This document shows positions 10,058 to 31,855 of a stretch of 64,000 nt of DNA, piece by piece. The stretch lies in contig SCUJ01000006.1 of the NCBI GenBank assembly GCA_004297165.1, forward strand, positions 186,001 to 250,000, given 5' to 3'. The stretch's first letter is position 1. Every line of letters begins with the position of its first letter. This DNA is from Gammaproteobacteria bacterium (GTDB lineage Bacteria > Pseudomonadota > Gammaproteobacteria > Eutrophobiales > Eutrophobiaceae). The position numbers and the translations under genes are program-made. The notes under the pieces are model-generated. The model ran no database searches and was not told the origin of the DNA. It was given only the letters and a program-made list of their open reading frames with translations.

Positions 10058-10110
10058 ATATGCCGGGCAGTGTGTAAACTGCGCCAGGACTGGCGTATCG
10101 AGAAGGGATT

Positions 10111-10136: not shown

Positions 10137-10360
10137 GGTGTGATTGGTGGTGCTGACGCGACGCCACGAAACCGACTGCGGCTGCAACGGGCACGAACCA
10201 GCTTGAGCCAGCACCAATGGGCGAATTGTAGCCCAACTCATCCCGGAGTCTCAATCGTCGAAGCCGGCCAGTTGTTGTTTCGGTGGTCTGCAGTTCGATC
10301 CCCAAACACACAATCGAACCGCTGCCCTCATTAGAGATATCGGCCAGCAGCAAGCGCTTG
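10137..10360 (-). other. P4-like immunity (ash/CI RNA) region candidate
   Basis: This 220-bp stretch lies between the terminator and the WYL promoter. On the minus strand one frame reads PIGAGSSWFVPVAAAVGFVA and then RQHHQSHQSQPRAGFF. This wording recalls the ash/Icd-like frames that overlap the CI RNA immunity region in P4-type satellites and related elements (recognised from memory). The stretch is rich in inverted repeats (for example GGTGCTG 10149-10155 with CAGCACC 10209-10215, and GCAGTTCGAT facing ATCGAACCGCTGC near 10290-10324) and ends in a strong leftward terminator. A short structured RNA is more likely than a protein. It could equally be a decayed remnant. Confidence 0.35.
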
Positions 10361-10402: not shown

Positions 10403-10482
10403 TATAAAGCGCCTAGCAATGAGCAAACATAAAACCAATTCCGGTCTTACCGTCGCCTGCCGTGGATGAGGAGCTTCTGACC

Positions 10483-11385
10483 ATGCACCCCCAGCGCGTC
10501 GAGAACTTGAGCCACGCCCAGCGGGAGCGCCTGGCCTATATCGATTTCCGACTCTACTTCTTCGGCGAGATCGGGCGTCCCGATTTAACCAGCCGGTTCG
10601 GCGTAGCACCAGCAGGCGCAACGCGCGATCTGGCTCTGTACCGGGAAATCGCACCGCAGAACATCGAGTTCGACGGCAGCAGCAAGGTTTATCGCATCGG
10701 CAAGGACTTCGTGCCGTTGTTTGAGCACGCATCACAGCGCGTGCTGTCAGCGATTGCCTTGGGGTTTGGCGATGGCGTAAACGTTGATTCTCAGCCACTA
10801 TTACCCTGCGAATCGCCCACAGCTCTGAGCAGTCCTAGGATGGATGTGTTGGCCCCGATCTGCCGGGCCATCTACGCCAAGCGCCCGGTGACCATCCGCT
10901 ACCACTCGATGAGCAACGGTGAGTCCGAGCGCGTAATCGTGCCCTTTGCTTTGGTCGACACCGGGCTGCGCTGGCACGTTCGGGCCTTTGATCGTAAGAG
11001 CGGCGAGTTCCGCGACTTCGTCGTGACGCGCATTGAAGCGCCGACGTTGCTCGATGAGGAACCTAAGGCGAACGAGCGCCCGGACAACGATATCCAGTGG
11101 ACGCGCATCGTTGAACTGGATTTCGTACCCCATCCGCGTCTGAGTCGTCCTGAAATTATCAGGATGGACTACGGGATGAAGGATGGCCCGATACGGATGC
11201 GTGTCCGCGCGGCGGTCGCTGGCTACATGCTGCTGCGCTGGAGCGTCGATGCATCTCCTGACCACAGCCTGAAAGAAGAGCAGTACCGCCTCTGGCTCAG
11301 CGATCCGCTGGCCTTGTACGGGGTAGAGAACGCAAAGCTCGCACCTGGGTACCAAGCGCCAGCAGCCAAAACATTACGGAAATAG
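10483..11385 (+). CDS. WYL-domain transcriptional regulator of the defence operon
   Basis: A 300-residue protein with an N-terminal winged-helix segment (about residues 10-70, containing [14 protein letters not shown] and [16 protein letters not shown]) and a central WYL-type ligand-binding domain (about 125-200, with [13 protein letters not shown] and [10 protein letters not shown]). The C-terminal WCX-like extension runs to residue 300. This matches the BrxR/CapW-type regulators found at the head of phage-defence loci, thought to sense nucleic acid or nucleotide signals. The ATG at 10483 is preferred (GAGGAG upstream); an in-frame ATG at 10462 would add 7 residues. hsdM follows after 11 bp, so they are probably co-transcribed. 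Confidence 0.85.
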
Positions 11386-11396
11386 GACAGGACACG

Positions 11397-12936
<1,540 letters not shown>

Positions 12937-12947
<11 letters not shown>

Positions 12948-14256
12948 AACTCGCGCCTTCGGAGCCCTCTTTGCCGAACCTCCCCGTAACGGACTTACCC
13001 GCCCCAAAGCTGTCCGGGGGGCTGGAACAAAGATGGTAAATATGGGGGAGCTGTTTGCGTTCCCTCGAATCCGCAATGTATCGATGGACAGGGTGCCGCT
13101 CAGCAAAACCGAGACTGATCGTTTCACGCTAAAGAAAGGAGACCTGCTGTTCGCTAGGCAATCGCTCGTGCTTGAGGGTGCAGGTAAGTGCTCAATTTTT
13201 CTTGACGATGAAGAATCAGTAACCTTTGAGTCACATGTAACACGCGTAAGACTCAATACAAACGAGGCAGATCCACAGTTCTATTTCTACTATTTGCAGT
13301 CTCATCACGGGCGAGCAGCCATCAGTAGCATCGTTGAACAAGGCGCTGGAGCATCTGGCATTCGGGGCAGTGATCTTGGTGGCCTTAACGTCATTTGGTA
13401 TCCACCTCGTGAACAACGCGCCATCGCTCACATCCTAGGCACGCTCGACGACAAGATCGAACTCAACCGCAAGCAAAACGAAACGCTGGAGGCCATGGCT
13501 CGCGCTTTGTTCAAATCGTGGTTTGTAGATTTCGATCCTGTGCGCGCAAAAATCGACGGCCGCTGGCAACGCGGCCAGTCGCTACCTGGATTGCCCGCCC
13601 ATCTCTATGATCTCTTTCCCGACCGTCTTGTAGATTCGGAACTGGGCGAAATTCCTGATGGATGGGGTATTGGAAAACTTGGTGACGTGGCGGAACACCC
13701 ACGCCGAGGAGTACAACCAAACCAGTTCAATTCAGCCACGCCGTACATCGCACTTGAACACATGCCAAAACGATGTATTGCACTCTCCGAGTGGGCGAAC
13801 GCGGACGGGCTGCAAAGCAACAAGTTCAAATTCAAACGCGGTGAAATTCTCTTTGGCAAGCTGCGCCCATATTTCCATAAAGTCGGAGTCGCACCATTGG
13901 ACGGTGTATGTTCAACTGACATCGTCGTTATCGCACCAAAGGCTGAAAAATGGTTCGGCTTTGTGCTTGGTCATGTGTTCAGCGATCAGTTTGTCGAGTA
14001 CACAAACGCTGGATCGACCGGAACAAAAATGCCGCGAACAAACTGGGCGGATATGGCGCGCTACACCGTGCTGTGCCCGTCAGAGAGTGTCGCTGAAGCA
14101 TTTAATTCGAAAGTCCGACCGATGACTGACGAACTAATCTCCTCAATTCACGAATCTAGAACCCTCTCCACCCTGCGCGACACACTGCTACCCAGGTTGG
14201 TTTCGGGCGAAATTCGGGTACAGGACATTGAACGTATCGTTGGAGCAGCGGTATGA
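12937..14256 (+). CDS. hsdS: Type I restriction-modification specificity subunit HsdS
   Basis: A 439-residue specificity subunit with two target-recognition domains. TRD1 covers about residues 1-160 and ends in the typical [20 protein letters not shown] helix start (near 160-180). TRD2 starts around residue 235 ([16 protein letters not shown]) and ends in a second helical spacer near 400-439 ([19 protein letters not shown]). The ATG at 12937, 7 bases after AAGGAG, is preferred over the TTG at 12931. The N-terminus starts inside TRD1 without the usual short leader segment. Base composition is clearly more A+T-rich than in hsdM, as expected for a frequently exchanged specificity gene. Confidence 0.93.
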
Positions 14257-14995
14257 GTTTGGACTGGTGCCCGGGCATTCGGGAGGCCTGCTCGCACTGG
14301 CGCGACGCGCCAATGCTGCAGCAGACCTTCGAGGAATTAGAACGAGCGCTGGCTGAAGACAACGACGCCTGCATCGACTCGGCAAAGGCCATCGTCGAGG
14401 TGGTTTGCCAGATCATCCTGCAGGAGTTGGACTCGCCGTCAAACCCAGTGCGCCCAGTCGAGGCACTGCCGACCTTTGGTGCCTGGATGAGCGCAGCTGT
14501 CCGGGCGTTGAAACTCGGAGACGTCCGGCACAACGGGTTCCAGAAGCTGGTGTCCCAGCACAGGAAACTCACGGACGCACTTGGCGATCTACGCAACGAG
14601 GCTGGAACGGCCAGCCACGGGCGCGAAGGATTTCTGCAGCGCCTGTCGGTTCATCACCGCCGTGCGGCGGTGTTGTCGTCCGACGCCATCGTCACCTTCC
14701 TGCATCAGGCCTATCTGGAGGCCGAGTTGGACTTGGTGCGGACACGCGAACCCTACGAACGCTTCGACCATCTGCACCGGATGATCGATGCGCAGGTTTC
14801 ATTGCAGGCCGATGTCGACGAGGAAGGTTTTCTGGCAGTGGACGTGACGCTGCCTTCCGGCGACGTACTGCCCTTGCGCGTTGAGGCGAGTCGACTGCTC
14901 TACCAACTGGATCGAGACGCCTATGTCGAGGCGTTGAACGCTGCACGCGGGGCTCCTGCTCCTGTGGTGGAGCAGGACGGAGAACAAGGAGAAGA

Positions 14996-14999
<4 letters not shown>
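14253..14999 (+). CDS. Abortive-infection family protein between hsdS and hsdR
   Basis: A 248-residue protein resembling the Abi_C-type abortive infection family. The central part contains [18 protein letters not shown] (about residues 43-60) and the downstream [15 protein letters not shown] (about 112-126), a conserved R-N-x-x-G-x-x-H-G signature of these proteins. The C-terminal third (about 175-248) is acidic and not recognised. It overlaps hsdS as ATGA and hsdR by 4 bp, so it is fully embedded in the type I operon. It may guard restriction activity or act as an independent abortive-infection toxin; the context favours co-regulation with the restriction enzyme. Confidence 0.75.
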
Positions 15000-18142
<3,143 letters not shown>

Positions 18143-18143
18143 G

Positions 18144-19586
18144 ATGGATGATCGGGAAATTGAGCTGTTCATTAAAGACTTCCTGAAAGAAATTCGGGAA
18201 GACAACGCGGCAATTTTTGCGGGGGCCGGTCTATCAGCATCAGCTGGCTTTGTGAATTGGCGCGAACTGCTTCGGCCAATAGCCGACGAACTTCGTCTTG
18301 ATGTGGATAAGGAAAGCGATCTAGTAGCAGTTGCGCAGTACCACTGCAATGAAAATGCCGGCAACAGGCATCGTCTCAATCAAGCCATCATTGATCAGCT
18401 TTCAGTCGGCGTTGCGCCTACAGAAAATCATCGCATTCTGGCTCGCCTTCCCATCAGCACCTACTGGACGACCAATTACGACCAACTAATTGAGTCTGCC
18501 TTGAAGGCGGCGGGAAAGATTCCGGACGTCAAGTACACGACAGAGCAGCTCGCCACAACCAGAGCCCGACGTGATGCCATCGTTTACAAGATGCACGGTG
18601 ATGTAGAGCATCCACACGATGCCGTCCTTATTAAGGACGACTACGAGAAGTATCACGTCAAGCGTGGCGCATTTATTAACGCGCTCGCGGGTGATCTCGT
18701 ATCAAAGACGTTTCTGTTTATCGGGTTCAGCTTTACTGATCCCAACCTTGAATACGTTCTCAGCCGGGTCCGGGTGACATTTCGTGAGAACCAGCGTCGG
18801 CACTACTGCATTTTCAAAAAGAGGATCAAGCAGGATGGCGAAAGCGATGCCGAATTCGAGAACGCGCAGATCAAGCAACGACTCGCAATTGAGGATCTCA
18901 AAAGATTCAACATCAAGACTCTGTTGATCGATGATTACGCCCAGATCACGGATGTGCTGGCGCGAATTGAACGGCAGTATCGCCAGAGGACGATCTTTAT
19001 TTCCGGTAGCGCTGAAGAGTATGGCGCGTGGACAAAATCGGCGACAGAAGAATTTTTGCGTGACCTGAGTCGCGCCTTAGTTCAACAGGGCTATCGAGTT
19101 GCAACCGGTGTTGGCCTTGGAGTTGGTGACGCCGTCATTACGGGCGCAATTGAGGAGGTCTATCGCGCTCGGACTGGCCACATAGAGGATTCGCTGGTAA
19201 TGCGTCCATTTCCACGGGCCAACCCTGACGAGACAGTTCGCCAGCGTCTGTGGGAAGACTATCGCCAAGACTTGATTTCAGCGGCGGGGATCTGTCTTGT
19301 GGTTCTTGGCAACAAGCGGGTTGATGGGCAGATCGTTTCCGCTGGCGGTGTTCGACGAGAGTACGAAATTGCCCGCCAGCACGGTTTGAACGTGGTTCCT
19401 CTCGGAGCAACTGGGTATATGGCCAACGAGATTTGGTCCGAAATGTCATCAACGTTTGAGACACATTACCCAAATGCAAAGGCAGATCTGCGTGAGCAAT
19501 TCAGCAGACTTGGCGACGCCGTAGAAAAGCCAGCCGAACTCATTTCTCGAACGCTTGAATTTATCGGACTAATTTCCAAGGAGTAA
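18144..19586 (+). CDS. thsA: Thoeris ThsA, SIR2-SLOG NADase effector
   Basis: A 480-residue protein with an N-terminal SIR2 domain (1-275) and a C-terminal SLOG domain (about 281-480), the architecture of type I Thoeris ThsA, which depletes NAD+ on receiving a TIR-made cyclic ADP-ribose signal. The SIR2 motif GAGLS is at 27-31, and the catalytic pair is visible as N111 in TTNYD and H151 in MHGD. The published Bacillus cereus ThsA pair is N112/H152, so spacing is conserved. The SLOG part contains FISGSAEEYGAW (285-296) and ATGVGLGVGDAV (320-331). The ATG at 18144 is 1 bp after hsdR. Two TIR genes follow. Confidence 0.95.
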   Translation: MDDREIELFIKDFLKEIREDNAAIFAGAGLSASAGFVNWRELLRPIADELRLDVDKESDLVAVAQYHCNENAGNRHRLNQAIIDQLSVGVAPTENHRILARLPISTYWTTNYDQLIESALKAAGKIPDVKYTTEQLATTRARRDAIVYKMHGDVEHPHDAVLIKDDYEKYHVKRGAFINALAGDLVSKTFLFIGFSFTDPNLEYVLSRVRVTFRENQRRHYCIFKKRIKQDGESDAEFENAQIKQRLAIEDLKRFNIKTLLIDDYAQITDVLARIERQYRQRTIFISGSAEEYGAWTKSATEEFLRDLSRALVQQGYRVATGVGLGVGDAVITGAIEEVYRARTGHIEDSLVMRPFPRANPDETVRQRLWEDYRQDLISAAGICLVVLGNKRVDGQIVSAGGVRREYEIARQHGLNVVPLGATGYMANEIWSEMSSTFETHYPNAKADLREQFSRLGDAVEKPAELISRTLEFIGLISKE

Positions 19587-19590: not shown

Positions 19591-20082
19591 ATGGCACGAC
19601 GTGTATTTTTTAGTTTTCATTTCGAGCGAGATGTCTGGCGTGCTGGGCAGGTGCGCAACAGCTGGGTGACGAAGGCTGACAGAGAGTCGGCAGGCTTCTG
19701 GGACGCCGCCGATTGGGAGGAGGTCAAAAAAAAGGGAGACGACGCGATCAAACGGTGGATCGACAAGCAGCTGGAAGGGACATCAGTTACGGCGGTTCTC
19801 ATTGGAGCAGAAACCTCTGAGCGCGAGTACGTCGGATACGAAATATCGCAAAGCCATAAACGCGGAAACGGGTTACTCGGGATTTACATCAACAAGGTAA
19901 AAGATTCATCCGGCAAAACTGACGTGAAGGGAAAGAATCCCTTCGATAACTGGTACGTCACCGTGAACGGCCAGCGGCGTTACTTCTCAGATATGTACAA
20001 GACTTACGACTGGGTCGATGACGATGGCTACAACAACCTCTCCAAGTGGGTAGAGGCGGCCGCGAAAGCAGCTGGCCGTTAG
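19591..20082 (+). CDS. thsB: Thoeris ThsB, TIR-like (DUF1863) sensor
   Basis: A 163-residue protein of the TIR-like DUF1863 type used as ThsB, which makes the cyclic ADP-ribose isomer that activates ThsA when it detects phage. The opening RRVFFSFHFERDVWRAGQVR (3-22) is the typical beta-A strand and loop. The segment around residue 84 (SEREYVGYEISQS) supplies the expected catalytic glutamate. The C-terminal part has YKTYDWVDDDGYNNLSKWVE. It lies 4 bp after thsA and 17 bp before a second TIR gene. Confidence 0.93.
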   Translation: MARRVFFSFHFERDVWRAGQVRNSWVTKADRESAGFWDAADWEEVKKKGDDAIKRWIDKQLEGTSVTAVLIGAETSEREYVGYEISQSHKRGNGLLGIYINKVKDSSGKTDVKGKNPFDNWYVTVNGQRRYFSDMYKTYDWVDDDGYNNLSKWVEAAAKAAGR

Positions 20083-20099: not shown

Positions 20100-20690
20100 G
20101 TGGCGTATATCACCAAGGACGAAGCGCGACAGGCAGCGCGTTCACGTCTACAAAAGAGTTACGGTAGTTCGGCGACTCAGATTCTGCGAGAGGAGGTTCG
20201 AGCATCCGCCTCGACAGAATCTTTCGATGTTTTTTTATCGCACTCATCCGAGGACGCGGAGATCGTACTTGGCGTCCGGGAAATTCTCGTGGGCCTTGGC
20301 CTGAAGGTTTATATCGATTGGATCGATGATCCACAACTCGACCGGGGCAATGTGACAGCGGAGAACGCAGATCTTCTTCGCAGGAGGATGCGTGCATCGA
20401 AGAGTCTGGTATTCCTGACTACGAAAAGCAGCTCAACCTCTCGTTGGATGCCGTGGGAGCTGGGTTACTTCGATGGACTGCGGGCAGGTTTTATAGGGAT
20501 ATTGCCTGTCGTTGATTCGGGGGGAACATTTTCTGGACAAGAGTACCTCGACCTGTACCCTCTGGTAGAGAGGCTTCCAATCACAGGTGGCGGTACAAAA
20601 TTCTGCGTCGTAGAGAAAGCCAGGAAGGGATACCGATTCCTTGATGACTTTGCTCGAGGCCAGTCCACGATCCGTGCATTTGGTAGCTAA
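20100..20690 (+). CDS. Second Thoeris TIR protein
   Basis: A 196-residue protein with a canonical TIR fold: SFDVFLSHSSED at residues 41-52, YIDWIDD at 71-77, and the catalytic-glutamate helix RWMPWELGYFDG at 115-126 (E120). A short N-terminal helix (1-38) precedes the TIR. The start is a GTG at 20100 with AAAGGAG 7 bases upstream; a start at 20046 would overlap thsB. It is of a different TIR subfamily from the preceding DUF1863 protein, as in Thoeris loci with several sensors that recognise different phages. Last gene of the operon, ending 4 bp from the convergent prophage lysozyme. Confidence 0.88.
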   Translation: MAYITKDEARQAARSRLQKSYGSSATQILREEVRASASTESFDVFLSHSSEDAEIVLGVREILVGLGLKVYIDWIDDPQLDRGNVTAENADLLRRRMRASKSLVFLTTKSSSTSRWMPWELGYFDGLRAGFIGILPVVDSGGTFSGQEYLDLYPLVERLPITGGGTKFCVVEKARKGYRFLDDFARGQSTIRAFGS

Positions 20691-20694
20691 GAAT

Positions 20695-21156
20695 TCATAA
20701 TCTCAAGAGGTTGGCCTCGGCTTCCCTGCGTACAACCAACCCTGGCAGCACTTTCCCGCCGCCATAGACCCATCGGCGCATTTCCTGCCCAGCGACAGCC
20801 CAATCACGCTGGTTGATGCGCCGCTTCAGCGTCGACGTCTGCAGCCGTCCCGCCCCAAGATTGAAGGTGAAGTCCACAATGGCGGCCAGCCGCCCCTCCG
20901 GCTCTGTGGTCAGCACCGGGCAATAGCGCAGGGTCGCCACCAGCGCCGTTTGCAGATCACGCGCCAGATAGACCTCGGCTTCGGCGTCAGAGATCGGTGG
21001 ATGCTTCGGATCGCAGAGGTGGCCGTAGCCAATCGTCCAGAACCCTGCGGGGCAGATGTAGGGAACGGCGGTGATCTCAACGCCACGCTTCACCTTGCGC
21101 TCGAACCCTTCGAAACGCTTTGCCAGTTCAATGGCGGCTTGCGGCACATCCATCAC
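20695..21156 (-). CDS. Phage lysozyme (GH24 endolysin)
   Basis: A 153-residue T4-type muramidase that cuts the cell-wall glycan at lysis. The catalytic glutamate is E16 in KRFEGF. The family's active-site strand follows with CPAGFWTIGYGH (about 55-66), and the helical core has VDFTFNLGAG near 109. No signal peptide or signal-anchor is visible, so export should depend on the holin encoded directly upstream, whose stop it overlaps as ATGA. Last gene of the prophage late operon. Confidence 0.9.
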   Translation of the reverse strand: MMDVPQAAIELAKRFEGFERKVKRGVEITAVPYICPAGFWTIGYGHLCDPKHPPISDAEAEVYLARDLQTALVATLRYCPVLTTEPEGRLAAIVDFTFNLGAGRLQTSTLKRRINQRDWAVAGQEMRRWVYGGGKVLPGLVVRREAEANLLRL

Positions 21157-21629
21157 GGTCGCACCCGGTCAAACACGCGCCCAAGGAACCAGAAATTCAG
21201 CACGCCGGCCCACAGCGCCTGATCGGCCTCTGTCCAAGCGTGCAGGATCGCCGTGCCCCAACCTGCGCCAGCCATCACGGCCGCCGCAAACGCCGCTGCC
21301 TTGGCGGCACAATACAGAGCCATGAACCAGTAGGTGATCACCGGCCGCACGCTGATCGACAAGGCGTCAGCCCAGCGCACACCAGAGCGCTGCCCCTGCG
21401 CCGCGACGGCTTCGCGCAAGGCATCGATGGCCCCGGTGTTCCACGCGACGTCGGCGGCAGCGCCGATCTCGCCCATCCGTTGCGCACCACGCAACTTCTC
21501 GAATTCCAGCGCCTTGTCCTGCATCGCCAGTTCGTGACTGCGCTCGCCTTTGCGATCCACCCATTTCAGGATTTCCGGGGCCAGACGGAAGGCTCCTCCG
21601 AGGAGGCCACCGAGCAGAGTCTCGATCAT
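21153..21629 (-). CDS. Putative three-segment phage holin
   Basis: A 158-residue protein in the lysis cassette. An amphipathic N-terminal region starts with IETLLGGLLGGAFRLAPEI, a charged middle runs over about residues 25-85, and hydrophobic segments cluster at about 93-150 (PVITYWFMALYCAAKAAAFA, then GTAILHAW and LWAGVLNFWFLG). The position between a small membrane protein and the lysozyme, with ATGA overlaps on both sides, supports a holin of the 3TM type. The family was assigned by general resemblance only. Confidence 0.65.
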   Translation of the reverse strand: MIETLLGGLLGGAFRLAPEILKWVDRKGERSHELAMQDKALEFEKLRGAQRMGEIGAAADVAWNTGAIDALREAVAAQGQRSGVRWADALSISVRPVITYWFMALYCAAKAAAFAAAVMAGAGWGTAILHAWTEADQALWAGVLNFWFLGRVFDRVRP

Positions 21630-21984: not shown

Positions 21985-22335
21985 TCAGATGGCGATACCG
22001 GCGCTCCAGCCAGTAGTCTTGAAAGCCGAGAGCACCGTCTCATCATCGATGTAGCAGAGCCAGCCCACCTTGGGCGTGTAGTACTCCCAGGTGCTCGCTA
22101 CCCGGACTGCAATCTGATTGGTCTTGCCGGCCCACACACCCGTAGCGGCAGCCGGGACGATGTAGCGGTCGCCATCGACAGGACTGGCCGGCGGTGTAGT
22201 CAGATCCCGGTCCTTGACCGAGAGTCCGACCACCGCGCCGAGTCGCTTCAAATTGCCGTCCATCGTCGTGTGCCACCCGGACTCGCCGAGCGTCCAGCCG
22301 TAGGTGAGTCCGAGATTCGGATCAGTGCTTGCCAT
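21985..22335 (-). CDS. DUF2793-type phage tail-associated protein
   Basis: A 116-residue protein matching DUF2793 proteins found at the end of phage tail-tip operons. The characteristic part is a conserved PPASPVDGDRYIVPAAATG (about residues 47-65), followed by WAGKTNQIAV and a KVGWLCYIDDETVL segment. Its function is probably a receptor-binding or fibre-attachment domain. The start codon shares one base with the stop of the large tail-tip gene. Confidence 0.8.
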   Translation of the reverse strand: MASTDPNLGLTYGWTLGESGWHTTMDGNLKRLGAVVGLSVKDRDLTTPPASPVDGDRYIVPAAATGVWAGKTNQIAVRVASTWEYYTPKVGWLCYIDDETVLSAFKTTGWSAGIAI

Positions 22336-24542
22336 CAGATGCCTCCGTAGTATTTGCCATAGTTCAGGCCATACCCCGCGCGGTCGACGCTACGGGTCTG
22401 CTTCTGCCAACTGGTGTAACCGGCGCGCACCGCTTCGATTTCAACCTTGAACTTGCCGTTGATGCGGCCCAGTCCGCTGTCGGTCGCCTCGTCAGCAGTG
22501 AGATACGTCCAGGCGGTCGTGGTGAGTCCGGCCACAGTTTTCTGGAGCGAGTTGTTCTCGTTGTAGAACCGCACGGTGTAGGTGACGCCTGCCTCCGGGC
22601 CAATATTGCCCTCCGACTGCGTCACCAGATAGACCGTCTGCTGCATCCGGTCGCGATGGGCCCAGGTGAGCGCCATCTGGCCGACAATCGTCGCCGGCCA
22701 CATCACGTTATTCACTCTGACGTTCCCCGGCGGATAGGGCCGGATCATGCGTCCAGCAAACGTGTAGCTGTCCGCCGGTGCTGCCGATTCCGCCAGTCGC
22801 CCGAGGCCGGTCGCCGGTAGCATCTTGACCTGCAGCGACTCGCCGGAGAGGTATTGCTCCGTGACCAGCGCCTCCAGGGCATCGGCGAACCAGATGCGCG
22901 CCGATGCCAGATGCGGTGCCGGTACCGTGTCGAGCACGCCCCGATCCACCGTGACCGTGCCGGCTACCAGATTGATCGCCTTGACCGCCACGATCTCGTT
23001 GTCAAGATAGGCATAGGTGTCGAGTTTCACGACGTCCAGATCTTGCCCATTGCCGATGGCAAGCACCGTGGTCTGCTCGTCGATGGCGTTGGTCACCGTC
23101 GCATTGGGGGTGAAGCCCATCGTGTCCACTTCGGCATAGGCAGCACTGCCCTGGCGCGTCAGCAGCTTGATGTTGAGCGAATCGCTGGAGGGGCGGCTCG
23201 CGCAGGCCACCAGCAACCCGCCCTGCGGGTCCAACTCATCTCGGGCCGTCTGCGATTCGCCGACCACACGCTTGACCACGGTCCACCACGGCGCTTCACT
23301 CAACCGCCGATACGGCACCTGAGCCGGCGAAGTCAGCGGTGACACCCACGAGGTCGGAGTCGGGGATACGTAGGAGGCGGACGGCAGGCCGAAGATGTCT
23401 TCGACGCATTCGATCCTTACCCGGCCGTCGGTCAGCGTTCCATACGACACGCGCACGACTCGCATCACCAGTTGGGCGATGCCCAGTTCCGACCAGGTGA
23501 ACTTGAACACGTCGCCGATGTTGAGGTTCGACGCCTGCCGATTGGCGATCAGCGTCCCCTTAGCCAGCGGTACCGAGAGTTGCTTGAGGTCGCCGAGCGC
23601 CACCCGCGAGGCCAGGCTGCCGTTGGCGATTCCCGGATAATCGACTGTCGCCGAGGACACCACACCGCCCGCCAGTTCCAGTGCGGCCAGGTCATGCACG
23701 GTGATCGCGGCATCCTTGTCGGTGGAACGATCATGGTAACGAACGGTGATCTGATTGACGAGTTCCGATTCCGAGGGCCGGGAGAAGCTCTCCAGTTCCA
23801 GAATGTTCGAGGCATCGAGCACCAGAAGGCTGGAGACGTTGTAGTCGGCCCGAGCCAGTTTCAGAACGAACTTCCCGGTACGCGGATGGACATAGAGCGT
23901 GCCATCGATGTGCCGAAGTATCTCGGCGATGAATTCCTCCAGCGGCTGTTCGCGCTCCCAGAGCAAGGACAGCCCGTACTGCTCCGAAGCCAGCGTATTC
24001 GCGGCGGTCTGGAAACTGGTCGCATCGATCTCGCTTGCCGCGTAGCCCAAGCCCCACGTGGCATTGTTCAGGCACTCGTAAATGATGTGCGCCGGGTTGG
24101 CGTCGCCATTTATGTAGCCACTCCCCAGCGCCGCCGGTGCCGGGATACGCCGCGCCTCGATACTCCAGGGTTTGATGTAGGGGTTCATCGCCGACAACTG
24201 GCACTGCTGGGCGATGATCGACACCACCCCTCGGAAAGCGGGAATGACACTGCCCAGTTTCTGCTGCAGATAGCCCGACACCGTTTCCGCCGCACCGCCC
24301 AGCTTGACCTCGACGTAGCCCTGGACGCCGCCCTCGCGGGAATCCCCGCCGAACAATTCCGGGGCATTGACGTAGAGGGTCTGCGAGGACGTGACGCTGC
24401 CGCTCCAGGCCGTGCGTTCGCCGACGATGATGCGCGTCACCGCGTCCACTGGCCCGTGGCAGATCGCCAGGTGCAGGCCGGCGTAATACCGATGGCCAAC
24501 GACGTAGGATGACGAGCCGCCACCTTTTCCGCCGCCGCCCAT
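22335..24542 (-). CDS. Tail-tip host-specificity protein (gpJ-like)
   Basis: A 735-residue protein with a glycine-rich start (MGGGGKGGGSSSYVVGHRYY) followed by a hub-like domain with GEVAWSG-like GERTAWSG near 42. A central gpJ/GTA-type domain (about 150-400, with WGLGYAASEIDATSF and HIDGTLYVHPRTGKFVL) and a fibronectin-like C-terminal part (about 600-700) complete it. It occupies the position of the central tail fibre or hub protein that contacts the receptor. Five smaller tail-tip genes lie upstream in the same operon. Confidence 0.85.
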   Translation of the reverse strand: MGGGGKGGGSSSYVVGHRYYAGLHLAICHGPVDAVTRIIVGERTAWSGSVTSSQTLYVNAPELFGGDSREGGVQGYVEVKLGGAAETVSGYLQQKLGSVIPAFRGVVSIIAQQCQLSAMNPYIKPWSIEARRIPAPAALGSGYINGDANPAHIIYECLNNATWGLGYAASEIDATSFQTAANTLASEQYGLSLLWEREQPLEEFIAEILRHIDGTLYVHPRTGKFVLKLARADYNVSSLLVLDASNILELESFSRPSESELVNQITVRYHDRSTDKDAAITVHDLAALELAGGVVSSATVDYPGIANGSLASRVALGDLKQLSVPLAKGTLIANRQASNLNIGDVFKFTWSELGIAQLVMRVVRVSYGTLTDGRVRIECVEDIFGLPSASYVSPTPTSWVSPLTSPAQVPYRRLSEAPWWTVVKRVVGESQTARDELDPQGGLLVACASRPSSDSLNIKLLTRQGSAAYAEVDTMGFTPNATVTNAIDEQTTVLAIGNGQDLDVVKLDTYAYLDNEIVAVKAINLVAGTVTVDRGVLDTVPAPHLASARIWFADALEALVTEQYLSGESLQVKMLPATGLGRLAESAAPADSYTFAGRMIRPYPPGNVRVNNVMWPATIVGQMALTWAHRDRMQQTVYLVTQSEGNIGPEAGVTYTVRFYNENNSLQKTVAGLTTTAWTYLTADEATDSGLGRINGKFKVEIEAVRAGYTSWQKQTRSVDRAGYGLNYGKYYGGI

Positions 24543-24746
24543 TTACGTGCTCTCCTGCGACTGTCGCAGTCGTTCCACCTCGTCGGCCAGCCGGGCCGCC
24601 ATCGCATCGCCCGTCGCACGCAGCCACTCGGCCGTGACGCCGCGTTGCCGGAAGTCGTCGAAGGTCACGCCATCACGAGGGAACCACTTGCGCAGGCCGG
24701 CGTTGCAATACCCGAAGGCCTTGGCATCATCGTGCGTCACGATCAT
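24543..24746 (-). CDS. Small tail-tip operon protein
   Basis: A 67-residue soluble protein (MIVTHDDAKAFGYCNAGLRK...), with a single helix-rich body and an arginine-rich end. The start at 24746 gives a 4-bp ATGA overlap with the upstream gene, and only the frame after it looks protein-like. Similar small proteins stand between the gpI-like and gpJ-like genes in related siphophages. Function unknown. Confidence 0.7.
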   Translation of the reverse strand: MIVTHDDAKAFGYCNAGLRKWFPRDGVTFDDFRQRGVTAEWLRATGDAMAARLADEVERLRQSQEST

Positions 24747-24982
24747 TTCTTGCCTCCACTGCCCGATGACTGTCGAATCTCGGTGGTCTTCACGTCGCCA
24801 TACCAGACGACGTTGGCCTGCCGGATGACGCGGGTACCGAACAGCACCGGTATGGGTTTGCCGGATTCCGCCACCGGCACGTCGAGGTTGCCCGGCGTTG
24901 CGGAAGCCGGCTTGGGCGGCTTCGGCGCAAGCAGCATGCCGATGACCGTGGTGATAACCCAGATCGCGATCTGTACCCACAT
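24743..24982 (-). CDS. Small tail-tip assembly protein with N-terminal hydrophobic segment
   Basis: A 79-residue protein. The first 17 residues are hydrophobic (VQIAIWVITTVIGMLLA) and are followed by PKPPKPASATPG and a compact VPVAESGKPIPVLFGTRVI segment. This recalls the tail-assembly proteins of gpI type that precede gpJ. The start at 24982 was chosen because upstream codons overlap the previous gene in a non-protein-like frame. Function inferred from position only. Confidence 0.7.
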   Translation of the reverse strand: MWVQIAIWVITTVIGMLLAPKPPKPASATPGNLDVPVAESGKPIPVLFGTRVIRQANVVWYGDVKTTEIRQSSGSGGKK

Positions 24983-24992
24983 GGAATTACCC

Positions 24993-25790
24993 TCAAACGA
25001 TGGAATCCCCGGCGAAGGGGTTCTTGGCAGGAATCCAGGGAAACCCGCCGAAGTTGAGACTGTTGCCGAACTTGGACTGGCAGGTGGCGAACGTCCGGTC
25101 GCAGCCGGCGAAAGCCTCGAACGCCACGCCCACGGCAAGTCCCGGCAACACCGCCGAGAGCGTGATCGTGTCGCCCGAGTGATTGGTGATCATGCGTGGC
25201 ACCCCTGCCACGCGCAGATAGCCGCCGGTAAGCCAGCCGGATGCCTGCGACAGAAAGGTGCTGGAGGTCACATTCAGCCCAGAGAAGGACGCCACCGTGC
25301 CGGCGAGTTTGTAGGCCTGGTTGTTCACGCCGCATCCCGGATCGAACAACGCGTGGCGGCAGCCGGTCTGGTAGTGAGCGCGCAGGCCAGGGCGTTTCAG
25401 GGCCGTGAAGATCGACTCGCAGCGAATCTTGGCGGTACTGCCGGCAAACGCTACAGAGGCCACGCGCCCCTTCCACCAGGTAATGTATTCCGAGTCGCCG
25501 AGATGGTTACGGAACACGGTCAGCGACACCACGCCGTTGGGGCGCGCGGCCGCGAATAGTTGCGCCACTGCGAAATCCCGCGCGCATTCGAGGTCGATAC
25601 CGTTCCGAGCAAACTCCGGCGATTGCTCGACCGCCGAGCGGCGGATCACGGCTGGCTGGTAGCTCTCGACCTGATAGGTGATCGCCTCGCGACCGCTCGT
25701 CACTGTCCACACCTGCTGGCCGAGAACGAAACGATAGAGTTCCACCGGCTGGCCGGCGGCCGCCGAGATTTCCTGCGTGTTGTAGCTCAT
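24993..25790 (-). CDS. Phage BR0599-type tail protein (DUF2163)
   Basis: A 265-residue protein with an N-terminal DUF2163-like part (about 1-150) and a C-terminal phage_BR0599 part. The C-terminal signature is visible as AFAGCDRTFATCQSKFGNSLNFGGFPWIPAKNPF split over residues 228-261, with the two conserved cysteines. CRHALFDPGCGVN near 145 is also typical. These proteins form part of the distal tail/hub in gene-transfer-agent-like and siphophage tails. Confidence 0.88.
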   Translation of the reverse strand: MSYNTQEISAAAGQPVELYRFVLGQQVWTVTSGREAITYQVESYQPAVIRRSAVEQSPEFARNGIDLECARDFAVAQLFAAARPNGVVSLTVFRNHLGDSEYITWWKGRVASVAFAGSTAKIRCESIFTALKRPGLRAHYQTGCRHALFDPGCGVNNQAYKLAGTVASFSGLNVTSSTFLSQASGWLTGGYLRVAGVPRMITNHSGDTITLSAVLPGLAVGVAFEAFAGCDRTFATCQSKFGNSLNFGGFPWIPAKNPFAGDSIV

Positions 25791-25803
25791 CCTTGGATCT
25801 CGG

Positions 25804-27492
25804 TTACGACTTCACGCTGCGCATTGGCAGCGAGACTTCCGCGACGCTGTCGGTCTGCCAGTTGATTTCGATCTGGTCGGCATCGAGCCGGGTTTTTTCC
25901 AGAAAGCAGATGGCGACCCAGTCCTCGGGATTGACGTCGAAGCCGAAGGACTGATTGATCGTCATCACTTCTTCGTCGCCGGTGGTGCCGGCACCGAAAC
26001 CCTGGATGGTGCGGAAGTACCAGCTGCCGTTCTTGTGCAGGAAGGCAGCTTCCGTGCGCCCCGGCATCGGATTGAAGTACAGGGCGTAGCCGCGCGAGGC
26101 CACCGTCATGACCGTTTGGTTGGACAGGATTTTCTTGGTCGGGACGATGGAGGCTTCCCATGTGGGATGCCAAAACGCAGTCAGGCGGCCCAGCCGGGCG
26201 GCCAGCCAGCCCCGGAAGGCGGCGATCTCGCTGCGGTTCTTGAAAAGGTAGTCGAAGGAGCGCCGCACGAAGGGGCGCGCGGCATGGTCATCCACCGCCG
26301 TGATCCCGGTCTCGAAATCCAGCACCTCGGCCAGTCGCTGATAGTCGACACTGACATCACGCACCCGATTCGGTCGTGTGATCCACACCGGAGTTGAATT
26401 GAAGGTCGTCGTCGATTCCTGCTTCGCGATGGCCGTGGTGCCGGCGATGTCGAACACGAGACGGGCGCGGGCTATGGCGTCGGTCACCCTTGAGACTGCC
26501 TGGGTCACCCGCAGCCTCGCCGTGCGTGCCGGCACGACGAACGATCCGGCCGCCCAGTTCGACAGGAGCGGCTGCTTCAGGGTCACGGCATTGCTGGCTA
26601 CCGAGAGCACTTCGGCTGCCTCGGTGTTGCGGCTGTCGCTGCCGATCACCAGCAGGCCGTCGGCCTCGTACTCGAGGCTCAAAGTCGTGATCGGAATCAC
26701 CGTACTGCCAGCAGTGATGGCGGCCGAGAGGAAAGTCTTGTCCGGCCAGATGGGCAAGGCATAGACGCGCGACTGCCAGGCCGACAGCAGCACGTCGAGC
26801 AGCGCCGCATCATCGCGGCCGACCAGGATCGAGAATTCCAGCGAGCGGCGCGGCTTGGCGCGCAGGCTGACGCGCTGCTCGGTGCCATCGCGGGCAGTCA
26901 GCACGTCGGTGGCCCACATCAGACGTTCCAGCCAGCCGTCCGCCCAGTTGGGTTTCAGGCCAAACACCACGACGCGCCGACCGGAGATCGACAGGGTCGG
27001 TGCCTCGTCCGGAAACTGGAAGGTAAAACTCGCCTCGATCACCGGCGGCCCGTCGAGGCTCACCGAGACGTTATGCAGGCGCGACTCCAGCATCCCGTAG
27101 GTGGTCGGCGGATTCGCCGGTGCAGCGAGCGTGATGCCGCCATCGTTCTGGCCGACGACTGCCGACAATGTCTTGGAAGCGAAGTGGGCGTTCCACACCT
27201 CGACCTGGCGGATCTGCGTTGACAGCAAGTTTCCCAGCGCAATCTTGGCCGGCAGCAGGTGGACGTGGTGATACCAGTCCTGCTCGAACTGACGAACCCT
27301 GTTCCCCGCGAAGGTCGATACGATCTCGGCAACCGGCAGATTGTTGGTAAGCAGGCCCGCGTTCGGTGGGTTACTGGCCAGGGCACTCGGGTATGGCAAC
27401 GTCAGGGGTGCCGGCAGGAACTTGTACGCAGCGCCATAGGCGGGATCGGACGGCAGCCCGGATGGCAGGATGGCTCCAGCGTAGGTGGTCAT
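25804..27492 (-). CDS. Large tail-tip structural protein
   Basis: A 562-residue protein between the tail fibre-like genes and the BR0599-type protein. The N-terminus (LPAPLTLPYPSALASNPPN, about 27-45) suggests an extended region. The middle has the tail-protein-like segment RRSLEFSILVGRDDAALLDVL (about 214-234), and near 420 it has RSFDYLFKNRSEIAAFRGWL, a pattern seen in distal tail proteins. Length and operon position fit a distal-tail or baseplate hub component; no precise family is assigned. It overlaps the next upstream gene as ATGA. Confidence 0.75.
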   Translation of the reverse strand: MTTYAGAILPSGLPSDPAYGAAYKFLPAPLTLPYPSALASNPPNAGLLTNNLPVAEIVSTFAGNRVRQFEQDWYHHVHLLPAKIALGNLLSTQIRQVEVWNAHFASKTLSAVVGQNDGGITLAAPANPPTTYGMLESRLHNVSVSLDGPPVIEASFTFQFPDEAPTLSISGRRVVVFGLKPNWADGWLERLMWATDVLTARDGTEQRVSLRAKPRRSLEFSILVGRDDAALLDVLLSAWQSRVYALPIWPDKTFLSAAITAGSTVIPITTLSLEYEADGLLVIGSDSRNTEAAEVLSVASNAVTLKQPLLSNWAAGSFVVPARTARLRVTQAVSRVTDAIARARLVFDIAGTTAIAKQESTTTFNSTPVWITRPNRVRDVSVDYQRLAEVLDFETGITAVDDHAARPFVRRSFDYLFKNRSEIAAFRGWLAARLGRLTAFWHPTWEASIVPTKKILSNQTVMTVASRGYALYFNPMPGRTEAAFLHKNGSWYFRTIQGFGAGTTGDEEVMTINQSFGFDVNPEDWVAICFLEKTRLDADQIEINWQTDSVAEVSLPMRSVKS

Positions 27493-28247
27493 TTCAGGAA
27501 TGCGTAACCGCCATAGCTCATGCTAAAAACCATCCAATCGTTCCCGCCCAGCGTGACGATGTCCTTGTTAACGTACTGCCCGTTCATCCTCAGCAGGCGC
27601 ACGCCAGGTGCGTAGCCCATCATCGAGTAGAAGTAGGTGGGCGTCGGGCGACCGACTTCGACCGTGCAGGGATACAAGGGCGTCACACTGTTGAAGGCGA
27701 TGGGCGAATAGCCGTCGAGCCCCCGCGTTGTCGCCGTATAGAACGTGCGCACAGCATCGGTGCCGGATGTGCCGACCTTCCACTTGTTGGTATTGCCGTC
27801 GATGTCGGCCCGCACGTAGGTCGTGTAGGTGTCCGACAGGAAGGCTCCTCCGGTGAAGGTGCAGGTCTTGGTGATCGCGCCGAAGATGATCGGCGCGTAG
27901 GAGGTACTCGCCCACTGCACGACGCAATAGCACCAGCCATCACCGCCGAACAGGAAATATTCGGCACTGCCTGACAACTGGGCCAGCGAGTACGAGCCCG
28001 AGGCGACGGTCTGCGAACCGTAGGCCAGACCGCTGTTGAAGCTCGTCGAGCCGTACCAGGCCACATAGGTCGAGTAGGAATGCAGATGAACATACTGGCC
28101 GCTGGCGACGTGTTGCAGATGCAGACGGTTGTAGCCGGCATCGGCTTGGTACATCAACTGCGTGTAGCCGCAGACCCCTGTGGCGAAGAGCCGAATCTTG
28201 TCGAGCAGGTCGTTCGGCGAGGTGGTGATGCCGGATTGAAATGCCAT
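27489..28247 (-). CDS. Tail protein, paralogue 2 of a tandem pair
   Basis: A 252-residue protein rich in Y, G, S and T, typical of a beta-structured phage surface protein. Its start (MAFQSGITTSPNDLLDKIRLF) is recognisably similar to that of the next gene upstream (MAFTSGTATDYLDLLNRLKQF), so the two appear to be diverged tandem copies with a shared attachment domain. The rest of the chain differs. A tail-spike or accessory baseplate role is inferred from position. Confidence 0.75.
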   Translation of the reverse strand: MAFQSGITTSPNDLLDKIRLFATGVCGYTQLMYQADAGYNRLHLQHVASGQYVHLHSYSTYVAWYGSTSFNSGLAYGSQTVASGSYSLAQLSGSAEYFLFGGDGWCYCVVQWASTSYAPIIFGAITKTCTFTGGAFLSDTYTTYVRADIDGNTNKWKVGTSGTDAVRTFYTATTRGLDGYSPIAFNSVTPLYPCTVEVGRPTPTYFYSMMGYAPGVRLLRMNGQYVNKDIVTLGGNDWMVFSMSYGGYAFLK

Positions 28248-28255
28248 CGATTACC

Positions 28256-29062
28256 TCACGCGAGCTTCAAGGCCCAGTAGTCGCTGTAGCCGGTGCGAAA
28301 CACGTCCTGCACCACCAGATGATCGACGCCGCCGACGCTGACGATGTTCTCGACGGCATTGGCATAGCCGGGCACGCAGTAGCAGCCTTCCATCTCCCCC
28401 AGGCCAGCCAGGATGAAGGGCAGCAGCGGGTAGGAGCCGTCCGGGCATTCACGGGTATTGCTGCCCCAACTGGTCGGCCACATCGCCGACACCCCTGTCC
28501 AGATGCCGGTCGGCGCGTAGTACGCCCCCGAGTAGCCCTGCGACTTGGGCAGGTGATTGCGGTAGGTGTAGGAATTGCTCCAGCGCGTCGAACTGTTGTA
28601 CGTGCCGCCGACCAGGAGTGGGTACGGGTACTGGCCCGGCGTCGCATAGGGCAGGAACAGGCCCAGATGCAGCATCTCGTAGTAGGTGCCGGTCTTCGCC
28701 ACCATTACGATGCGGCGACCATTGGCCACGATCCAGTAGGGCATGGCCGATGCCATGAGAAGCGCGTAGAACGTGCCGCTCGGGTTGTACTGGCCGTCGA
28801 AGGTCTGCGCCGCATTCCATCCGACGAAGCCGCGCAGTTTCCAGTTGCCGTAGTCCGCCCCGGCTTCGGACAAGATGCCGACGTTGATCTGGTCGGTGCC
28901 GGCGAGCCCCGGCCCCTGCAGCACCAGTTCAGCGGGCGGCCCAGGCACCCAGCGCAAGACCGACCAGCGCTCGTTGGCTGGCAGCATGTCCTGCGTGACG
29001 AACTGCTTGAGCCGGTTCAGCAGGTCGAGATAGTCGGTGGCGGTGCCACTGGTGAACGCCAT
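28256..29062 (-). CDS. Tail protein, paralogue 1 of a tandem pair
   Basis: A 268-residue protein beginning MAFTSGTATDYLDLLNRLKQF, with a body rich in aromatic residues (for example GNWKLRGFVGWNAAQTFDGQ near 91). It lies directly after the tape-measure gene on the same strand, where siphophages encode distal-tail proteins. The similar N-terminus of its downstream neighbour suggests gene duplication. No enzyme motif is seen. Confidence 0.75.
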   Translation of the reverse strand: MAFTSGTATDYLDLLNRLKQFVTQDMLPANERWSVLRWVPGPPAELVLQGPGLAGTDQINVGILSEAGADYGNWKLRGFVGWNAAQTFDGQYNPSGTFYALLMASAMPYWIVANGRRIVMVAKTGTYYEMLHLGLFLPYATPGQYPYPLLVGGTYNSSTRWSNSYTYRNHLPKSQGYSGAYYAPTGIWTGVSAMWPTSWGSNTRECPDGSYPLLPFILAGLGEMEGCYCVPGYANAVENIVSVGGVDHLVVQDVFRTGYSDYWALKLA

Positions 29063-29067
29063 GAGCT

Positions 29068-31839
29068 TTACCTCAGCAATTCGCGCACAGCCGAGCCGTT
29101 ACGCGAGAGGACGTTGAGAATGGTTTTTTCACCGGCGGCGGAATTCAGATAGTCGGCCGCCATGCCGGGATCGATGACATTGACGATGCGCACCGCTTGC
29201 GAGGGTGCGGCAGCCGGGGCTTGGGCGACATCCGGCACAAGGCCACCCTCGGCGAATGCCAGGCGCGGGCCCGACCAGCGTGGCCCAGACAGTCCGCCGT
29301 TCAGGGCATGCAGGAAGTCCACGCCCACCCGGCGCACGACTTCGGCACGCAGCACGAATTCCCCGGCGGACAGGCGTGCCGGAATGGAGTCCGATGTCGA
29401 AGTGCCCGGCCCCGACACCAGGCCGCCGGCGGCGAACTTCTTGACCTTGCCCAGGAGCGCCATCACGGCGGCGACCATCGCCACCATCGCGGCTACCGCC
29501 AGCGCCGGGCCGACGTAGGGAATGGATGCCTGTGATGCCGCCGCGCCGGCACCCGCCTTGGCGGCATCCATCGAGACCACGGCAGTGGTTTCCGAAGACT
29601 TCTGCGCGACCTTGGTGACGCTCGCCGCCGTATCCGCCGCCTGCTCCTGCTGGATGAAACCGAGCTTGAGCGCCAGCATCCGCGCCTGCATGGCAATCCA
29701 CTGCTGGAAGGGCTGGATGACCAGTTGCTGCAGGAAGGCGTTGGCGACCTGCAGGAACAGCGCGGACATGGCGTTGCGCCAGGTCTGCGTGCCAGTCAGT
29801 ATGCCGTTCAGGGCACCGCCGAAGGCCTCACCGATGCGGTTCCACAGCGGAGCCATCTCGTCTACGACGAGGCGGGTGCGTTCCAGCTCGTTGCGCCAGG
29901 ACTGCACGCGAATCACCGCATCCGGCCCGATGGCCTGTGCGGCTTGCTGCATGGTCGGCAGCAGGCGCTCCATCTCGGCGGCCGATTGCTGCTGCAGAGC
30001 CACGATCTGCTGGCGGGCCTGCGCCTCGGTCAGCAAGCCCGCCTGCTGCTGGGTCTGGATCGATTCCTGCGCATTGCGCAGGCGCTCGGTCACCTGCCGC
30101 CACAGGGATTCCAGGGCTGCCAGATTGGCTTGCGCAGCTTTCACATCGATCAGCCTGTCGACGAGCGAGACACCGCCGGCATCGCTTTCCGCCGCCAGGC
30201 GGGCGCGCAGATCGCGGTAGCTGCGGGCAATCGCCGCCTGCCGATCCGCATCGGTCGAGGTGCCGGTGATCTGTGTCAGTTCTTCCCGCGCCTGAGCCAA
30301 GGCGTTGGCAAGCTCGCGCTCGGCCTGTGCCGACTTGCGGGCGTTGGCCTGCTCGATGTCGGCACGCCGGTTGTTGAGCGTGATGAGATCGGATTCCGCC
30401 TTGGCGACCTCGGCCTTGGCACGCAGGCGGTCGTTCTCGGACTTGCCGGTGCTCGCGATCTGCTGGCTTCGGGCCAGCTCCTGCTGCTTGCGGGCGATCT
30501 CGGCATCGACCTCGCGTTGCTCGATGGCGGTTTTCTGGGTGTAGTAATCGCGCACCGAGACCAGACGGTCTTCGAGCGCGGCGTCCAGCGCCGTTTGCTG
30601 CCGGGTCAGTCCATCCTTCAGAAGGGCGAATTCGGCGTCCAACTGCGCCTTCATCAGCGCGGTCTGCGCGCCGGTCGTGTCCTTTTCGGCCCCACCGGCG
30701 GACTTCTTCTCGCACTTGCCATTGACCCATTGCCCGCCCGAGACCACGCAGGCGATGCGCTGCATGTCCTCCGTGGGCTTGCCGGTCGGGGTCCTTTCCT
30801 CGGGACGCCTGGGGCTGGTCAAAGCATCCAGCCGCTGCTTGGCCGCCGTCAGTTCCTGTTCCCATTGGGCGAGGTTCTTGCGCAGCGTCGCCATCGCACC
30901 GTCGTTGAACTTGACGTCGAAGGGCATAAACGGCACCGGGGCCTTGCCGGAATCGACCTTCTTGCGCGTCGAATCGACCAGTTCCTGAATCCGCGCGACC
31001 TCGTCCCGGGCGCGCTTGATCTCGGTACCGTTGAAGACCAGATTGCCGACCCCACCCAGACCGACCCATAACGCCTTCAGCGTTCCAGCCTCGTTGGCCG
31101 CCTCACGCATGGCATTGGTGATGTTGGTCAGTTCCGGCAGGAAGTCGCGGGCCAGGGCAATGCCGAGCGAGGAGCTTGATGCCTTGAGTGCCGTGAGGTT
31201 GTCGTTGAACGCCTCGGCGGAACGCGCAGTTTCTGTGGTGAGCTTGAGGCCAAGCCGCTCGGCCTCGGCGGTCAGTTGATTGATGCCGGCCGCCCCCTGA
31301 TTCAGGAACGGGATCATATCCATGCCGCTCTTGCCGAAGATCTTCACGGCGAGCGCCGTTTTGACCGCGCCATCCTCCAGGTTGGCGAAAACATCGGCCA
31401 CCTGAAGCAACACGGCTTCGGTGGACTTCAGGCTGCCGTCGGCATTTTTGACGGAAATCCCCAGGGCTTCGAACACCTGCGCCCCGTCGCCGATACCGGT
31501 ATTGGCCTCGGCGATGTTCTGTGACAGCCCCTTGATGCCCTTTTGCAAAGTCTCCAGGCTCACATCCGACAGTTGCGCGGCGAAGCGCAAGGTCGACAAA
31601 GCCTCGACCGAGATGCCGATCTTCTGCGAGAGCTTGTTCAGTTGATCCGCCGCGTCGATTGCGCTCTTGATCATCGTGGCAAAGCCTGCGACCGAAAGAG
31701 AGACGCCAAGTCCGGCCAGCAGCCCCTTCACGCGATTCGACTCATCGCCGAGCTTGGCCAGGTTGCCGCGAATCGAGTCGAAGGCCGAGCGGGTCTGATC
31801 GACGGCGGTAATCAGCAGTTGGGCACGATCCTGGGTCAC
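29068..31839 (-). CDS. Tail tape-measure protein
   Basis: A 923-residue protein that sets tail length and lines the tail tube. The N-terminal part (DRAQLLITAVDQTRSAFDSI, 4-23) and the following QLNKLSQKIGISVEALSTL (about 68-86) are typical of lambda-family tape measures. A long alpha-helical, Q/A/R-rich middle (about 380-690) and hydrophobic segments near 760-800 (VGPALAVAAMVAMVAAVMAL) support the call. It is the largest gene of the tail module and follows the frameshifted gpG/gpGT genes as in lambda. Confidence 0.93.
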   Translation of the reverse strand: MTQDRAQLLITAVDQTRSAFDSIRGNLAKLGDESNRVKGLLAGLGVSLSVAGFATMIKSAIDAADQLNKLSQKIGISVEALSTLRFAAQLSDVSLETLQKGIKGLSQNIAEANTGIGDGAQVFEALGISVKNADGSLKSTEAVLLQVADVFANLEDGAVKTALAVKIFGKSGMDMIPFLNQGAAGINQLTAEAERLGLKLTTETARSAEAFNDNLTALKASSSSLGIALARDFLPELTNITNAMREAANEAGTLKALWVGLGGVGNLVFNGTEIKRARDEVARIQELVDSTRKKVDSGKAPVPFMPFDVKFNDGAMATLRKNLAQWEQELTAAKQRLDALTSPRRPEERTPTGKPTEDMQRIACVVSGGQWVNGKCEKKSAGGAEKDTTGAQTALMKAQLDAEFALLKDGLTRQQTALDAALEDRLVSVRDYYTQKTAIEQREVDAEIARKQQELARSQQIASTGKSENDRLRAKAEVAKAESDLITLNNRRADIEQANARKSAQAERELANALAQAREELTQITGTSTDADRQAAIARSYRDLRARLAAESDAGGVSLVDRLIDVKAAQANLAALESLWRQVTERLRNAQESIQTQQQAGLLTEAQARQQIVALQQQSAAEMERLLPTMQQAAQAIGPDAVIRVQSWRNELERTRLVVDEMAPLWNRIGEAFGGALNGILTGTQTWRNAMSALFLQVANAFLQQLVIQPFQQWIAMQARMLALKLGFIQQEQAADTAASVTKVAQKSSETTAVVSMDAAKAGAGAAASQASIPYVGPALAVAAMVAMVAAVMALLGKVKKFAAGGLVSGPGTSTSDSIPARLSAGEFVLRAEVVRRVGVDFLHALNGGLSGPRWSGPRLAFAEGGLVPDVAQAPAAAPSQAVRIVNVIDPGMAADYLNSAAGEKTILNVLSRNGSAVRELLR

Positions 31840-31855
31840 GACGTGGTCATCTCTC

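Follow-up and report, generated by a model that had tools for sequence, protein, structure and literature searches.

The window analysed here, a stretch of 64,000 nucleotides, holds a long series of phage genes on the minus strand and, facing them on the plus strand, a single run of defence genes at 10.46–20.69 kb (Table 1). The order of this run is WYL, HsdM, HsdS, Abi_C, HsdR, ThsA, ThsB1 and ThsB2. The three type I RM subunits (HsdM, HsdS and HsdR) are found together in the one operon, and ThsA, which has both the SIR2 and the SLOG (STALD) domains, is followed directly downstream by two ThsB genes, the arrangement of a Thoeris system. Leftward of the run come minus-strand genes for TacA, a BRO-N protein and Wadjet JetABCD, and at the far end of the phage genes is a tRNA-Ala(CGC).

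Table 1. Coordinates of the features in the window, from left to right
Feature	Position	Strand	Basis
Terminator-like hairpin with T run, directly outside attL after CACCACCA	10110..10136	-	-13.7 kcal/mol, z -5.06
Putative attL, 24-bp motif ending CACCACCA	10145..10168	-	22 of 24 bases as in L294
WYL-domain regulator, first gene of the operon	10462..11385	+	PF13280 E 2.4e-14
HsdM, type I methyltransferase	11397..12947	+	PADLOC MTase_I E 2e-214; N6_Mtase
HsdS, specificity subunit	12931..14256	+	PADLOC Specificity_I E 8e-98
Abi_C-domain protein within the RM operon	14253..14999	+	PF14355 E 6.5e-15
HsdR, restriction subunit	14996..18142	+	PADLOC REase_I, 1164 bits
ThsA, SIR2-SLOG Thoeris effector	18126..19586	+	Pfam SIR2_2 and STALD; PADLOC ThsA E 5e-209
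ThsB1, TIR-like sensor	19591..20082	+	ThsB_TIR E 5e-24
ThsB2, TIR protein	20101..20690	+	TIR_2; 8btn (TIR protein) E 6.5e-38
4-bp gap, convergent stops	20691..20694	.	Stop positions of both genes
Phage lysozyme, final phage gene ahead of the cargo	20695..21156	-	PF00959 (Phage_lysozyme) E 1.4e-30
158-aa gene adjoining lysozyme	21153..21629	-	AcaML1 gp63 homologue, 90.5%
Tail, tape measure, portal, protease, large terminase, ParB-methyltransferase, primase and Sak4 genes	21985..55180	-	PHROGs
Serine recombinase (integrase)	56613..58037	-	Resolvase, Recombinase and zinc ribbon domains
DUF2924 gene adjoining the integrase	57977..58444	-	PF11149 E 1.2e-39
262-aa protein and 708-aa QatC-like protein	59608..62512	+	Kept between integrase and att in relatives
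Putative attR crossover, CCACCA at the tRNA-Ala 3' end	62772..62777	-	Likeness of relatives ceases at the tRNA-Ala/tmRNA 3' end
tRNA-Ala(CGC), integration target	62772..62847	-	ARAGORN

The Thoeris proteins resemble members of their families with known structures. ThsA aligns with 6lhx (ThsA) at 576 bits and keeps the Asn that is replaced in 8bto together with an aligned His; ThsB1 aligns with 9b7d (ThsB1) at E 2.9e-38; and ThsB2, for which we set the start at the GTG at 20101, preceded by GGAG, in preference to 20046, retains MPWELGYFDG in its alignment with 8btn. The Glu in the YEI and WEL stretches of the window TIR proteins is likewise retained. We take the Asn and His of ThsA and the Glu of the TIR proteins to be catalytic residues. 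Domains and aligned residues of ThsA, ThsB1 and ThsB2 are thus compatible with active proteins, as far as can be judged from sequence. The G+C content is about 52% in parts of HsdS and the Thoeris genes (13001–14000 and 18001–20000), about 60% in the rest of the operon and 61–67% in the phage, and the lower values suggest that these parts of HsdS and the Thoeris genes were acquired separately.

Both att sites (called from sequence), an integrase, packaging genes and tail genes are all present, as expected of an intact phage; ten window phage proteins were covered by the PHROGs scan. The integrase-side end is placed at the CCA of tRNA-Ala(CGC), 62772–62777. Past DUF2924 come an SNase gene, the 262-aa gene, the QatC-like gene and then the tRNA. 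When viral contigs were scanned with the integrase, 43 loci were returned, and 41 of these (L165–L205) were compared. Homology in these 41 extends past the integrase, and 15 of the contigs reach the 3' end of a tRNA-Ala or tmRNA, a T-arm-like core or an attP-like core; many of the other loci are contig fragments that end earlier. ARAGORN reports tRNA-Ala(CGC) in L169, L174, L184 and L191 and a tmRNA in L196, while elsewhere the contig holds only the 3' part. The phage right arm begins directly after CCA. We also considered an end at 58.4 kb, by DUF2924; this was ruled out, as the likeness of the relatives continues to the tRNA. The 708-aa protein matches QatC at E 2e-59 in PADLOC, under the NCBIfam cut-off. 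It and the 262-aa gene are kept in many relatives of the integrase, so that the prophage has a second defence-like pair at this other end.

At the cargo-side end, just beyond the WYL gene, the minus strand at 10168–10145 carries the motif CGTGGCGTCGCGTCAGCACCACCA. The bases that it shares with L294 lie at 8171 on the reverse strand of that contig, which is the cargo-side end of the L088 prophage, likewise at a tRNA-Ala(CGC). A related, more diverged copy is found at L057:16477 and, since the motif used for scanning was built from the window and L294 sequences, this is an independent find. With up to 6 mismatches allowed, neither strand of 164 kb holds a further match. Local alignment of the window attL with L294 gives z 6.5 (1000 shuffles), and a gapped collinear alignment of the window arm with the L288 arm gives z 6.2 (0 of 500 shuffles); against seven other arms z runs from 1.3 to 4.5 (L286 1.3, L125 1.9). 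The att core common to both window ends is 6 bp, CCACCA, and the crossover probably fell within its copy at 10145–10150. The attL call depends on the second of two arm types, present in three elements, the window prophage among them. The core of most relatives, GGACGCGGGTTCGGTTCC, is absent from the window and from 80 kb leftward, and a profile of five arm sequences finds no match in the same DNA. Searching the viral contigs for exact patterns of the arm or attP of the window prophage gave no match either.

The hairpin that follows the motif was not reported by a scan with a consensus terminator; we read it as a probable terminator that once served the tRNA-Ala gene. L246, which comes from a genome in this family, has the same tRNA-Ala and, 185 bp past it, DNA that is 78% identical over 807 bp to window 10058–9252, the TacA region adjoining attL. 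TacA modules are mobile, therefore their place beside the L246 tRNA is supporting evidence and not proof. Taken together, the motif shared with L294 and L057, the terminator and the L246 TacA region place attL at 10145–10168. Past the motif, both L294 and L057 continue into an apparent right arm of a second element, which makes them tandem-insertion junctions and not clean host junctions. L294 itself (reverse strand, 8187–9925) has the att motif and then a second right arm with another serine recombinase gene, and is apparently a case of two elements in tandem at one tRNA-Ala. Two other candidates for the left end were rejected: a direct repeat of the tRNA 3' end, of which there is none of at least 12 bp in 164 kb, and a core-like stretch near 10320 (GCGGTTCGATTGTGTGTT), which was set aside because the 10145 motif matches better and is then followed by the terminator. 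No closely related empty site was found, and 53 genomes of this family, searched with the phage end or with ThsB2, yielded only the genome of origin.

By sequence, these ends mark out a prophage of about 52.6 kb (10145–62777) in the 3' end of tRNA-Ala(CGC), with the RM-Thoeris operon inside it, in a slot of 10.5 kb between lysozyme and att. We hold this reading with high confidence. An earlier note on this DNA had proposed that the defence genes sit inside the prophage, between the lysis genes and an att site, and the position of attL, 10.5 kb past lysozyme, supports that proposal.

How far left might the prophage reach? Its true end could lie outside the window, in which case TacA, BRO and Wadjet would be part of it. 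In L164 and L148, relatives for which one att end could be located, the cargo amounts to some 28–31 kb, and more DNA has been added here: tRNA-Ala and tRNA-Ser lie about 106 kb apart (G000:C13, window -43 kb to 62.8 kb), against 2.4 kb in G001, of the same genus, which indicates that the locus acquired more than the prophage. However, two relatives have an att end that matches the 10145–10168 motif, next to which lie the terminator and then the very TacA region that adjoins the tRNA in L246, and no other arm is present in 80 kb leftward. We regard so long a prophage as very improbable; the toxin-antitoxin (TA), BRO and Wadjet genes appear to be outside the prophage. The Wadjet JetABCD set looks complete (window 1148–7901), adjoins the BRO-N gene and the TacA antitoxin, and could be part of a different island. 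Two copies of the end of the TA region, 8125–8214 and 9252–9341, 84% alike over 90 bp, flank BRO, a pattern that insertion of BRO or loss of a TA copy would produce.

The junction itself, where the defence genes meet the phage, is as tight as the earlier note had described. The stop codon of ThsB2, the second TIR gene (TAA, 20688–20690), and that of lysozyme on the minus strand (TGA, which reads TCA on the plus strand, 20695–20697) almost touch. Could a deletion have joined a prophage remnant to an unrelated defence island, with loss of the left end of the phage? The very tight gap and the missing core of the common left arm would fit this, but an att-like end is present at 10.15 kb and both flanking genes are complete. 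ThsB2 is matched by its PADLOC profile to position 192 of 194 and lysozyme ends 1–2 residues from where the likeness of its relatives ceases; with the usual C-terminus in place in each, neither is a truncated fusion. We also surveyed related loci in which lysozyme has an ORF of 150 aa or more downstream, 97 of them after redundancy was removed. This ORF is convergent with lysozyme in 63 of them, and among these 63 the stop-to-stop gap is at most 10 bp in 14 (small overlaps counted) and at most 30 bp in 23. Abutting convergent stops are common in this phage family, and hence no deletion is needed to explain the junction. The fusion of two elements that the earlier note had offered as its second explanation is superfluous, and we consider it a shade less probable still than the longer prophage. 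Least credible of all is that the prophage ends at lysozyme, with attL at about 20.69 kb and the operon a resident host defence island: many viral records do end at lysozyme and Wadjet and TA defence genes continue left of 10 kb, but 20.6–20.8 kb has no att core, in line with the earlier note's remark that an att site is lacking here, and no notable direct repeat, the note's own check for an attL exactly at 20.69 kb came back empty, the att motif is matched at 10145–10168, and related prophages in other hosts have an operon of the same type in the same place with the att end past it.

The cargo reading of the junction is also backed by 12 related elements in which we could locate the cargo-side att end, each with cargo between lysozyme and that end. 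A common arm follows lysozyme in AcaML1, L027 (which shares its contig with L091), L125 and L141 and in the records behind L093, L123, L144, L148, L149 and L164; L088 and L057 carry the second arm type. Both ends are known for L125, L144, L149, L088 and AcaML1 (the last from its published integration site), and only the cargo-side end for the others. From the lysozyme stop to the arm the distance is 5.5 kb (L057) to about 31 kb (L148). The phage form of the site can be seen in L187 and L188, which hold an attP with both arms around one core, GGACGCGGGTTCGGTTCCGTGTTCCACCACCA, directly preceded by genes that by eye are like McrB and McrC; the counterparts of these genes in L027 gave no PADLOC match at the limits used.

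The contents of the slot are diverse. Classed from scans of selected proteins, the cargo is of defence type in seven of the 12 delimited elements, an exporter in three, and was assigned to neither class in two (L027 and L148). Defence cargo includes the annotated Dcm-McrBC of AcaML1, which lies between lysozyme and the att core, a methyltransferase (L057), a PLD-helicase with a DUF1156 methyltransferase and DUF499 (L093), DUF1156 with a helicase (L123), a type IIG system (L125) and type I RM with a GmrSD-like Orf5/HEC-06 protein (L149); L088, described below, is the seventh. The exporters are of the AcrB family in L144 and L164 and MMPL in L141. AcrB-type or MMPL exporters in place of defence genes are seen in the slot at L286, L289 and L141. 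For the PADLOC tally, reported as a list of families, 94 cargo proteins were drawn from 250 non-redundant ones and 91 remained after three from a reversed locus were dropped.

Some relatives share parts of the window cargo. Of 122 loci with at least 800 bp past lysozyme, 23 hold a protein like the window WYL, RM or Thoeris proteins (E <=1e-5). The closest is the prophage of L088, L294 and L295, which lies at a tRNA-Ala(CGC) in a genome whose label names a different host class. Its HsdR, ThsA and ThsB1 are 94–96% identical to those of the window at the protein level (L088), the HsdR-ThsA-ThsB1 DNA is 87% identical, in the same slot, and the slot ends at the window's att motif; at the position of ThsB2, L088 has a GmrSD-type protein. 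L040, L049, L111, L124 and L172 have relatives of HsdR or of the TIR proteins with different partners. L288 reads lysozyme, RM, WYL, arm, CACCACCA and terminator, with a tmRNA at the opposite end, and the WYL protein adjoining its attL is 91% identical to that of the window. Between most loci the cargo differs, that is, content turnover is high, and the relatives thus have a cargo port in the stretch from lysozyme to att.

L288 (2113–17649) and L125 (127–19857) are short elements, with both att ends, lysozyme and defence cargo, and with the integrase region inverted. L288 has 15.5 kb between its att ends, with an integrase, lysozyme and an RM-WYL operon and with no head or tail genes recognized; L125 is an element of 19.7 kb, and the two have few or no structural genes. 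It is conceivable, though we think it doubtful, that lysozyme, cargo, attP and integrase form a portable docking module that occurs across tail types and in small elements, and that the small ones are satellites or phage-derived islands. If so, elements like L288 and L125 would carry operons for defence and export from one bacterium to another, with a related helper doing the packaging.

How might such a prophage work? The circular phage would have the order lysozyme, cargo, attP, right arm and integrase, and the serine integrase would recombine attP with the 3' end of a tRNA or tmRNA gene within CCACCA. The slot would permit exchange because nothing essential would lie between the lysozyme stop and attP, which would make the operons swappable. 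Because the operon runs against the late genes and is equipped with a regulator, it could be read in the lysogen while the late genes are silent. Tail to tail with those genes and under its own WYL regulator, it would be expressed in the lysogen and protect it. The working steps are those established for the RM and Thoeris families: HsdMS would methylate host and prophage DNA and HsdR would cut unmodified DNA, while ThsB1 and ThsB2 would sense infection and produce a cyclic ADP-ribose signal that activates the NAD-destroying ThsA. The phage would in this way shield its host cell, and hence itself, from other phages, with RM acting first and Thoeris as a suicidal backup. We infer that the prophage can excise and that the operon is active in defence.

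These results are of use in several ways. A set of Thoeris and type I RM genes can be phage cargo, which bears on the spread of defence islands; in the window the cargo makes up 10.5 kb of the prophage. The region from downstream of lysozyme to the att arm is also a search handle for defence genes as yet unnamed. Furthermore, prophage callers that trim at lysozyme will ascribe such cargo to the host.

Several known systems are comparable. A search of the literature, mostly of listings and the openings of abstracts, returned no description of a defence slot between lysozyme and att, and the portions covered of PMC5567305 and PMC12429752 contain no such slot. Thoeris as represented by 6lhx, 9b7d and 8btn is matched in all three proteins, in the domains and in the aligned residues of catalytic type, and differs in its setting here, a single gene run on a prophage in which a type I RM operon comes first. 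AcaML1, an Acidithiobacillus phage (JX507079), shares the lysozyme and gp63 homologues and the placement of cargo between lysozyme and att. Its own cargo, Dcm-McrBC with IS elements, differs from that of the window, and it has an annotated tail sheath, whereas no sheath was matched among the ten window phage proteins scanned. In the sections of PMC3826726 covered, AcaML1 is described as an inducible phage integrated in the tmRNA gene with 10-bp repeats. Closest in kind are the defence hotspots of P2-like phages and P4-like satellites, which, according to the part of PMC9122126 covered, occupy some 1–5 kb between two conserved genes; the same part describes two further hotspots, in prophages of Vibrio and Bacillus, that lie close to integrases. 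In both the P2/P4 hotspots, as there described, and the slot reported here, defence genes turn over fast next to fixed phage genes, and in the 12 related elements the cargo lies between fixed landmarks, lysozyme and the att arm. The differences from those partly covered accounts are of boundary and size: the window slot is bounded by lysozyme and the attachment site itself, and slots of this type, at 5.5–31 kb, are larger than the small P2/P4 hotspots. On this comparison, the window slot is a large, att-proximal variant of the known prophage defence hotspots.
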